Shown here: piece by piece, positions 30,932-36,073 of the stretch
How positions within the stretch are numbered: position 1 is the first letter of the stretch
Layout of the letters: every line of letters begins with the position of its first letter
From: an uncultured bacterium
GTDB lineage: Bacteria > Cyanobacteriota > Vampirovibrionia > Gastranaerophilales > Gastranaerophilaceae
Assembly (NCBI GenBank): GCA_902795965.1
Contig: CADBNI010000006.1
Span: 1 to 39,288, forward strand
Length of the DNA: 39,288 bases
Direction: 5' to 3'
The notes under the pieces: model-generated
Databases searched by the model: none
What the model was told of the DNA's origin: nothing
Seen by the model: only the letters and a program-made list of their open reading frames with translations
Program-made: the position numbers and the translations under genes

Positions 30932-32915
30932 AAACCATTTCTCTTAATTTTTTCAGCTTATCACGAATTTCTGCGGCACGTTCAAAATCAAGAATTTTGG
31001 CAGCTTTGTGCATATCTTTTTCAAGCTGGTCGATAAGTTTTGGTAAATCTTTTTTGCTTATACCCATATCAACCATTTCTTCCGCAACAATATCTTCCAA
31101 ATCCCTATAACTTGCAACAAGAGAAAGGAGATTGTTTTCAATCGGTTTTTTAATTGTTTGCGGGATAATTCCGTATTTTTGGTTATATTCGGTTTGAATT
31201 TTCCTTCTGCGTTCGGTTTCGCTGATTGCTTTTTCCATGGATTCGGTCATTCTGTCCGCATACATAATAACCTCACCGCAAGCATTACGAGCCGCACGAC
31301 CTATTGTCTGAATCAAACTTGTTTCCGAACGCAAAAAACCCTCCTTATCCGCGTCCATAATCGCAACAAGTGAAACTTCGGGAATATCAAGCCCTTCTCT
31401 CAAAAGGTTAACACCAATAAGCACATCAAATTCACCAAGCCTTAAATCTCTCAAGATTTCGACACGCTCAAGCGACTGAATTTCACTGTGTAAATATCTG
31501 ACTTTTATCCCCGCCTGAACAAAGAAATCGGTCAAATCTTCCGCCATACGTTTTGTCAGCGTTGTAATCAAAACTCGTTCATTCTTTTCCGTACGTTTTT
31601 GAATTTCTTTTTTCAAATCTTCTATTTGGGATTCAATCGGGCGAACGGAAATCTTCGGATCAACGAGTCCTGTCGGTCTGATAATCTGTTCGACAATCTG
31701 CGAAGAGTGATTCCGTTCAAAATCCGCAGGTGTAGCGGAAATATAAATTTTTTGATGTACTCTGTCAAAAAATTCATCAAACTTTAGCGGTCGGTTATCT
31801 TTTGCGCAAGGTAATCTGAAACCGTAATCGACAAGAGTTTCTTTCCTTGAAGCATCACCGTGATACATTCCTTTTAACTGCGGAAGCGTAACGTGAGATT
31901 CATCAATAACCGTCAAAAAATCACCCTGAAAATAATCCAGTAAAGTAGCCGGAGGCGACCCGGGCGGTCTGCGTTCAATTATTCTGGAATAATTTTCTAT
32001 TCCCGAACAATAACCCATCTCTTTTATCATTTCCAAATCGTATTTTACGCGTTGTTCAAGCCTTTGCGCCTCAACAAGTTTGTTTTCGTTATTAAGTTCG
32101 ACAAGCCTTTGCTGTAATTCCGCACGAATTAAAGAAATAGTTTCGTCAACATTTTCATCATAAGAAATATAGTGAACCGCGGGATAAATGACCACACTGT
32201 TCGGGGTTTCAAGAATTTCACCCGTCACGTTGTCAATTCTGACTATTTTTTCAACTTCATCACCAAAGAAATATATTCTTGTAACAGTTTTTTCATAAGC
32301 GGGCATTATTTCAACAATATCACCGCGCGCCCTAAATGTAGAACGTTCCAAAACCAAATCGTTTCGGGTATACTGCACGCTTACCAAATGTCTCAAAAGG
32401 TCATCACGTTCAATTTCATCACCGACTTTGATTTCAACGGAACCCTTAAAATAATTTTCGGGCAATCCCAAACCATATATACAACTGACCGAAGAAACAA
32501 TTATGACATCATTCCTTTCATAAAGGCAACGTGTGGCATTATGGCGCAATCTGTCAATTTCATCATTAATTGATGCTGACTTTTCAATAAACGTATCGGT
32601 TCGCGGAATATAAGCCTCAGGCTGGTAATAGTCGTAATAACTGATAAAATATTCAACCGCATTATCGGGAAAAAGTTCCTTAAACTCGTTGTACAACTGT
32701 GCCGCAAGCGTTTTGTTATGCGCAATAATCAATGTCGGCTTTTGAACCTTTTCGATAACGTTTGCAATAGTAAAAGTTTTACCGGAACCAGTTATACCCA
32801 AAAGCGTCTGCGTATCATCACCGCGTTCAAGCCCGTCAACCAACTCTTTAATAGCTTTTGGCTGATCTCCCGCAGGTTTGTATTTTGATGAAATTTTAAA
32901 TTTTTTATATTCCAT
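30924..32915 (-). CDS. uvrB: excinuclease ABC subunit B
   Basis: I start at the ATG at 32915, which lies inside the end of the preceding gene, since the family sequence begins [19 protein letters not shown]. The product has 663 residues. Visible are Walker A GITGSGKT, the beta-hairpin segment [34 protein letters not shown], helicase motifs DREGL-like [10 protein letters not shown] and QTIGRAARN, and a C-terminal UvrC-binding motif ([19 protein letters not shown]). UvrB loads on damaged DNA with UvrA in nucleotide excision repair. No clear ribosome binding site, so translation is probably coupled. Confidence 0.96.
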
Positions 32916-34029
32916 AATTTTTGAATTTTGCAATGCTTTTTACGGAATCCGCAGAAGTTCTTGCATGAGAAATCTCAAATACTTCCGCACCATCATTCAA
33001 AAGCACAATGTTATCAATATTTTCAAGTGTTTTTATCTTTGCAAATTTTTCGGGTAAACCCGATTTTATATAATAACCGATAACTGTCTGCAAAACATCA
33101 TTAACCGAATTTGCACGCATTGTACAAATTCCGCCCTTTATGCGCAGAATTTCCGTATCGGGAGTATTCAAATCCGAAATAACATACTCGGGCAAAGATT
33201 TCAATATAAACTCGATTAATTGTGAATAGTTATCCGAATTTGCGCAAAATTTCACAAGCCCGTCAAACTCCGAACTTATAACCGAATTATTTTCAAGAAG
33301 AAAACATCTTTTACCGTTCAAAACAAACTTTAACAAAACATCAAGTAAAACCGTTTTGCCCGAATTTATTCCGCCTGCAATAACAATATTTTTTCGTTTT
33401 TCAATCAATGAACACAAAAGTTTGAAAAGTGTATTAGGAATTTTTTCTTTTACAATATCCAAATTCGGAGTTTTTCTGATAGAAAGATTATAATTGCCCG
33501 CACGAGTAATAATAAATTTCCCCTTCTTAATAGTATTTACAAAATCAGTCGACTTTTGCGTAAAAATTGAACTAACAATAAATTTAAGCTGACTTTCAGA
33601 CAATTTTATTTCCGTATTCAAAATTTTATTTTTAATTTCGATATAAACATTGTCTGTTCCGTTTATAAAAACCGCATTAACTTCATTATTATCCAAAAGC
33701 GGCTGCAAAACTCCAAAGTCCGAAACCGAATTACACAATTCATCAAGCAAAATATCTTTATCAATATCCGATATTTCCAAATTATCTTCAAGAATCTTTG
33801 CATCAACAAAATTTCTTATTAATTCTTTTTGTCTGTCTTTTGTGTATTCAAACCAAACAGGAATTTTTTCAATTTTTTCAAACAAAATATTTTTAAAAAC
33901 TTCTTTCAAATCAACTGCGGATGCGTTTTCATCTATTTGAAAATCGTCTTCTTTCGTTTCTATTTGTTTAATATTGCTTTGCGGAGTAAATTTTTTAAAT
34001 CTGCTGCTTAATTTATTTTTATCAATCAT
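32905..34029 (-). CDS. divergent CpaF/VirB11-like ATPase
   Basis: The product has 374 residues with AAGGAA before the ATG. An N-terminal domain of about 200 residues is followed by a P-loop, AGGINSGKT, at about 212-220. Usual CpaF landmarks are degraded: the acidic Walker B-like motif (VGEVRG in family members) appears as [11 protein letters not shown], and the HAN of the His box is MRAN in [13 protein letters not shown]. CpaF proteins power Tad-type pilus assembly or DNA transfer. Here hydrolysis may be reduced or lost, which is inference from these residues. It follows a CpaE-like gene by one base, but no other Tad gene is near. Confidence 0.72.
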
Positions 34030-35194: not shown

Positions 35195-35375
35195 AAAAAA
35201 GCCCTGCACGAATGTGATTTTGTTGCCTGCGGAGTCTCGCAGGTGGGTGAACGCCTCGGATTATCCGTTTCCCGCTGGCGATTTAAAAATCGGCGGGTAT
35301 ACTTCATATCCTGTCAGAGTCAATTCTCCCTTTTAGTATAAATGTAGGAACAAAATAAGCATCCGTACAGAACTT
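35195..35375 (-). ncRNA. structured ~181-nt RNA, candidate 6S RNA
   Basis: An extended -10 promoter predicts a start at 35375. From there the RNA begins with 16 bases (35375-35360) that pair without interruption, counting G-U, with 35199-35214, closing the ends of the RNA; a seven-pair stem (35355-35349 with 35218-35224) continues it. Inside are hairpins cccgc...gcggg (with cgattt/aaatcg), cggataatccg and cctgcg...cgcagg. The 3' arm is followed by a U-run (UUUUUU), making a terminator. Length, end-to-end stem, own promoter and terminator match bacterial 6S RNA, which binds RNA polymerase. The internal multi-hairpin part is less typical. It could be a different lineage-specific RNA or a leader element for the CpaE gene. 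Confidence 0.6.
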
Positions 35376-35381
35376 AATTTT

Positions 35382-35390
35382 ATTATAACA
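35382..35390 (-). promoter_or_regulatory. extended -10 promoter of the structured RNA
   Basis: Minus-strand TGTTATAAT (35390-35382), identical to the one before the CpaE gene. Six bases later is 35375, the first paired base of the RNA's closing stem. Confidence 0.65.
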
Positions 35391-35410
35391 TATCAAAAAG
35401 TATTCCGCAA

Positions 35411-36073
35411 CTATGAGAATTTTTTAACACCGATATAAAATCCGATATACATTGAAAGTACAATCAGTGCAACAGTATTTAACACATCAAGATGAGGATA
35501 ATTAATGTAAAAAACATTCATCCCCATTGTAAACAGAGCAAAACACAAGGCACATACGGTATATTTGTATGTGTTAAATTTTGTCATTTTTGCACTCATA
35601 GCGTCTATATTTGACAAAGTTAAAGCATTTTCGCAAACTTCACCGGAAATCTGTCCGTTTGCGGCTAATTGACGACAAGCCTTTTCAAACGCTTTTTTAA
35701 GCTGAATTTCAACAAGTTTAAGCATTTCTTCACGCGGAAGATTGCCGAGCGTAGCCTCTCTTGTCATTTCAAAAGCAACAAATCCCAACTTTTGCAAAAT
35801 ACTTTCGTGATACATTGCGGGAATATTTGAACGAAGCAAATCAACATATTTGTGAAAAGTCCATTCCGAAATAATCTGAGTGAGCATTTTTGCCGTATCG
35901 GAATCTTTGATACTGTCGTCTTTTGAAAATGCTTCGCCCGCAATATATGTAAAATTATAAATCCTGTCCAAAAATTCTTTTTTATGCTGCAATGCAACAT
36001 CACGCGGAATACTGCCTTCCGCCTGTCTTGTCAAATCTTTCGCAAACGTTTTGTAATCAAAATCAACCGTCAT
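35411..36073 (-). CDS. unrecognised protein with two C-terminal membrane segments
   Basis: The product has 220 residues with a GGAGGG site. Residues 1-155 are helical and charged (DYKTFAKDLTRQAEGSIP, ILQKLGFVAFEMTREATLG), then two hydrophobic segments at about 169-190 and 195-213 (YTVCALCFALFTMGMNVFY, LNTVALIVLSMYIGFYIGV). The bulk would be cytoplasmic with the C-terminus as a membrane hairpin. No family recognised. It lies between the large unknown gene at 36125 and the structured RNA, with its own promoter. Confidence 0.72.
   Translation of the reverse strand: MTVDFDYKTFAKDLTRQAEGSIPRDVALQHKKEFLDRIYNFTYIAGEAFSKDDSIKDSDTAKMLTQIISEWTFHKYVDLLRSNIPAMYHESILQKLGFVAFEMTREATLGNLPREEMLKLVEIQLKKAFEKACRQLAANGQISGEVCENALTLSNIDAMSAKMTKFNTYKYTVCALCFALFTMGMNVFYINYPHLDVLNTVALIVLSMYIGFYIGVKKFS

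Follow-up and report, generated by a model that had tools for sequence, protein, structure and literature searches.

The window, a 39,288-nt stretch of DNA from an uncultured bacterium of the order Gastranaerophilales, contains on its minus strand a gene for a structured RNA. Upstream of it lies a gene coding for a 220-residue protein without a Pfam match, and downstream a gene coding for a CpaE/TadZ-like ATPase (Table 1). The RNA gene is preceded by a sigma-70-type promoter, in which TTGCGG, 17 nt, TATAAT and 6 nt lead to A35375, the predicted start of transcription. This base is the first of the closing-stem strand AAGUUCUGUACGGAUG, and the partner strand CAUUCGUGCAGGGCUU directly precedes the U-run at positions 35200-35195. 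The sequence-only reading of this DNA had taken position 35375 as the first base of a stem that closes the molecule and leads into a U-run; both its coordinates and its anatomy were right.

Table 1. Features of the RNA gene and its surroundings in the window, in the direction of transcription
Feature	Position	Strand	Basis and remarks
Upstream gene, 220-residue protein	35411-36073	-	no Pfam match
-35-like hexamer TTGCGG	35405..35410	-	sequence; 3/6 to consensus; 17 nt before the -10 box; the upstream gene's stop codon lies directly before it
-10 box TATAAT of the 6S promoter	35382..35387	-	sequence; visible in aligned promoters
6S RNA gene	35195..35375	-	predicted transcript of ~180 nt; RF00013 match, covariation, conservation in the genus
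RF00013 match	35376-35197	-	model positions 1-187 of 187
Closing stem, 5' strand GUUCUGUACGGAUG	35360..35373	-	pairs with 35214-35201; covariation
Helix P2 (downstream duplex), 5' strand AUUUUGUU	35349..35356	-	pairs with 35224-35217; across the order A-U to G-C and U-A to A-U
5' central bubble CCUACAUUUAUACUAAAA	35331..35348	-	open in the consensus fold; contains CCUACAU
Apical-arm base, 5' strand GGGAGAA	35324..35330	-	pairs with UUCACCC 35251-35245; GAA-UUC, GAG-CUC and GGG-CCC exchanges keep the pairing
Apical hairpin CCCGCCGAU...AUCGCCAGCGGG	35271..35297	-	compensatory changes in helices 7 and 8
Apical-arm base, 3' strand UUCACCC	35245..35251	-	covariation; the CACCCACCUG string agrees with the 6S consensus of Rfam
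3' central-bubble hairpin CCUGC...GCAGG	35226..35243	-	unchanged throughout the family; order-wide alternatives C-G, G-C and U-A
Helix P2, 3' strand AACAAAAU	35217..35224	-	invariance in the family, covariation in the order
Closing stem, 3' strand CAUUCGUGCAGGGC	35201..35214	-	doubles as terminator stem; run of at least four T after the stem in 28/31 same-genus loci
U-run, predicted transcription end	35195..35200	-	sequence
TATAAT exactly 6 nt before the cpaE ATG	35190-35160	-	sequence
374-residue protein after the CpaE/TadZ-like gene	32905-34029	-	weak match to type II/IV secretion ATPases

A TATAAT-like hexamer (at least 5/6) is found just upstream of the start in 30/31 same-genus loci, and also in 34/37 loci of the family and 13/18 of the order; its retention within the genus argues that the -10 box did not arise by chance. 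A -35-like hexamer (at least 4/6) with similar spacing is present in 22/31 same-genus loci. The promoter was not listed by a generic promoter scan, which missed it because of its weak -35 hexamer (3/6). The claim that the RNA possesses its own promoter and terminator thus holds, with both the -10 box and the U-run conserved in the genus, and the sequence corresponds to an independent gene of the size expected for 6S RNAs (about 180-200 nt for the predicted transcript). In one genus of the family, the closing stem of five loci lacks the terminal U-run, and a separate terminator-like hairpin seems to come next, 3' of the 6S match.

The sequence-only reading had also noted a resemblance to 6S RNA. 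At relaxed thresholds the Rfam 6S model, RF00013, matches the minus strand end to end over this exact span, with E-values of 1.2e-5 in a local search of 351 nt and 0.0014 in the whole window. Its score of 34.7 bits lies below the curated cut-off of 46.4 bits, which is a database filter and not a biological feature of 6S RNA. Rfam searches at curated cut-offs yield no match in the window; hence, the gene would be missed by annotation. RF00013 is the only Rfam family with a meaningful, non-chance match at relaxed thresholds, no confident match to another RNA family was found, and the genome has no second 6S match. In the alignment to the model, the hallmarks of 6S RNAs fall in line: GGGAG at the opening of the apical arm, CACCCACCUG...GCAGG within the 3' central bubble, and GCGGGAAACG as apical strand.

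Related RNAs are widespread. Of the 33 genomes in the genus, with this one counted, 32 carry the RNA, at 87-97% identity, and the sole genome without it is 89% complete. RF00013 detects one copy per genome in 52/58 relatives, 18 of them over the cut-off, and has matches in 130/146 genomes drawn across the phylum. All scores in the genus itself are below the cut-off. Four same-family genomes exceed it, with 46.8-51.4 bits (the result was repeated for one of them), as do most other families, with scores of up to 62.4 bits in other families of the order. R1, a model built only from sequences of the family, picks up the RNA in five genomes of the family in which RF00013 had missed it. In three other families it independently matches, at the same places, the 6S loci that score above the cut-off. 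The R1 search did not reach cyanobacterial 6S RNA at an E-value of 0.01; the link with the latter thus rests on RF00013 and on the intermediate families. A search for a phage relative found none.

When one of the RNA's invariant motifs was searched for, most of the named records that turned up were assigned to Candidatus Gastranaerophilales or Melainabacteria, or were bins labelled 'uncultured bacterium'. A few bins bear other labels, among them three whose titles name an uncultured Acinetobacter sp. or Fusobacterium sp. although they carry this Gastranaerophilales motif; they are probably mislabelled metagenome bins.

We analysed covariation in an alignment of 46 sequences of the family, with alignments seeded with the RF00013 boundaries. 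The 6S-type structure is paired in 98.3% of cells, and 21 of its 48 pairs show double-sided changes, in 165 cells as compared with a mean of 39 in shuffled alignments. None of 500 shuffles reaches any of the covariation measures, and control structures slid along the alignment pair in 38-51% of cells only. In the closing stem, 11 of the 13 pairs have changed on both sides. P2 and the 3' central-bubble hairpin are invariant within the family, and they show compensatory changes across the order. The covarying structure is the canonical rod of 6S RNAs: it consists of a closing stem, P2, a central bubble that contains a 3' hairpin, and a single apical arm, which is long and irregular. The RNA also folds more stably than its shuffled versions: the single-sequence fold of its 181 nt has a free energy of -59.9 kcal/mol versus a mean of -40.5 for shuffled sequences (z -4.67), and none of 200 shuffles is as stable. 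In that fold the closing stem comprises 16 pairs.

Taken with the homology, these data bear out the 6S suggestion of the sequence-only reading and leave us very confident that this Gastranaerophilales bacterium has here its single-copy, divergent gene for 6S RNA (ssrS/ssaA type). Its product would be an ordinary 6S RNA that, until pRNA synthesis releases it, sequesters the housekeeping RNA polymerase.

It might be argued that the RNA is not an independent small RNA but serves the CpaE-like gene downstream of it as a 5' leader or attenuator. This gene starts ~20 nt downstream of the RF00013-matched stretch and has the same position in many relatives of the family. However, the closing stem is followed by a U-run, and a separate TATAAT lies 6 nt before the cpaE ATG, in agreement with the sequence-only reading that the terminator directly precedes the promoter of that gene. 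All eight genus genomes examined with a CpaE-like gene directly after the RNA have TATAAT or TACAAT at exactly this distance, and the CpaE-like gene thus seems to have its own, leaderless transcript. Moreover, CpaE/TadZ-like genes follow the RNA in many but not all same-genus loci; many genomes of the genus keep the RNA without such a gene directly after it, and the 1.5 kb read in other families of the order contained no CpaE-like match. We thus regard a leader function as extremely improbable. The gene of the 220-residue protein is found just upstream of the RNA in all same-genus loci examined (56-73% identity). In several other genera of the family, a leader is present before the CpaE-like gene. 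As for the 374-residue protein encoded after the latter in the window, it is possibly a divergent CpaF.

Two further explanations concern the nature of the RNA itself. A new class unrelated to 6S RNA, with three interior hairpins rather than one long arm, had been considered in the sequence-only reading. The lowest-energy single-sequence fold, with which the interior described in that reading agrees, does differ from the 6S-type structure inside the RNA, where it pairs UACAUUU with GAAGUA and forms a small hairpin at 110-120; a fold constrained by the comparative pairs is ~5 kcal/mol less stable, and the UAC/GUA part of the alternative pairing is invariant in the family. However, the alternative interior helices are paired in only 82% of cells with six double changes, versus 98.3% and 165 for the whole 6S structure, and we rejected them on this basis. 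Covariation supports one long irregular apical arm plus the small 3' central-bubble hairpin. The three hairpins are thus partly an artefact of single-sequence folding, and the invariant UAC/GUA complementarity may represent an alternative conformer. The end-to-end RF00013 match, the 6S-type covariation and the orthologues that score above the 6S cut-off all speak against a new RNA class, which lacks support and has a negligible probability. A 6S look-alike with another partner is conceivable in principle, since actinobacterial Ms1, which associates with core polymerase without sigma, shows that a 6S-like fold can bind the core enzyme (PMC9130861). Ms1 was nevertheless described from Actinobacteria, and the RNA of the window matches RF00013 and has the central-bubble strings CACCCACCUG and GGGAG in common with over-cut-off 6S sequences; an Ms1-like role is accordingly very unlikely.

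For the preferred reading, a genuine 6S RNA, we propose the following mechanism by analogy with characterised 6S RNAs, which mimic promoters, sequester the sigma-70/A holoenzyme and are released when the 5' bubble templates a pRNA (PMC5721685; PMC8876501). The RNA would be transcribed from its own sigma-70-type promoter, with transcription ending at its own closing stem and U-run. Once folded, it would mimic an open promoter: the closing stem together with P2 would take the place of downstream DNA, the melted -10 region would correspond to the central bubble, and the -35 side would be represented by the apical arm. In this form the RNA would bind the RNA polymerase holoenzyme carrying the housekeeping sigma factor and keep it off ordinary promoters under nutrient shortage. 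The genome has six sigma-70 region-3 matches, and hence a target holoenzyme exists. Upon the return of nucleotides, the polymerase would use the 5' central bubble as template for a short pRNA, open P2 and dissociate. The template role of this bubble is taken from the 6S literature (PMC8876501). CCUACAU (35348-35342) is identical in all 46 sequences of the family, an invariance that would suit a template but is indirect evidence, and is likely to be the pRNA template start. Synthesis would begin opposite C35344 or U35342, the exact base being uncertain, and the pRNA would start with AUGUAGGAAC or GUAGGAAC. As cited in PMC5721685, Synechocystis 6S RNA binds Escherichia coli polymerase in vitro, inhibits transcription and templates pRNA.

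A more speculative idea, which we consider rather doubtful, is that the 6S RNAs of Gastranaerophilales belong to a separate subtype with release mechanics of its own. Such a subtype would be characterized by a P2 that is strictly invariant and consists almost wholly of A-U pairs, by a 3' bubble hairpin that is likewise invariant and formed beforehand, and by the conserved UAC/GUA complementarity that links the 5' bubble with the apical arm and could give rise to an alternative conformer during pRNA synthesis.

The significance of these findings lies mainly in annotation, and the understanding of 6S RNA is unchanged. The Gastranaerophilales are gut-dwelling relatives of cyanobacteria and have a 6S RNA gene that may escape annotation based on cut-offs; the covarying alignment of 46 sequences could improve the Rfam 6S model. 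Literature searches combining 6S RNA with Melainabacteria or Gastranaerophilales returned no paper in the collection searched.

Compared with known systems, the RNA is closest to the 6S/SsrS family of RF00013, which includes cyanobacterial 6S RNA (ssaA). It resembles its members in length, in the end-to-end match, in the closing stem, in having its own promoter and in occurring as one match per genome, as well as in the central bubble with CACCCACCUG...CAGG and the GGGAG...CACCC base of the arm. It differs from them in its low score (34.7 vs 46.4 bits), the match placing large deletions in the closing-stem region, and in its P2, which is nearly all A-U in the bacterium's family. Bacillus subtilis 6S-1 RNA has a different sequence, but its 5' bubble is similarly open, and a small hairpin in its 3' central bubble is predicted even for the free RNA (PMC8876501). 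Finally, Ms1 of Actinobacteria has a 6S-like overall architecture; in contrast with the role proposed here, it binds core polymerase (PMC9130861).
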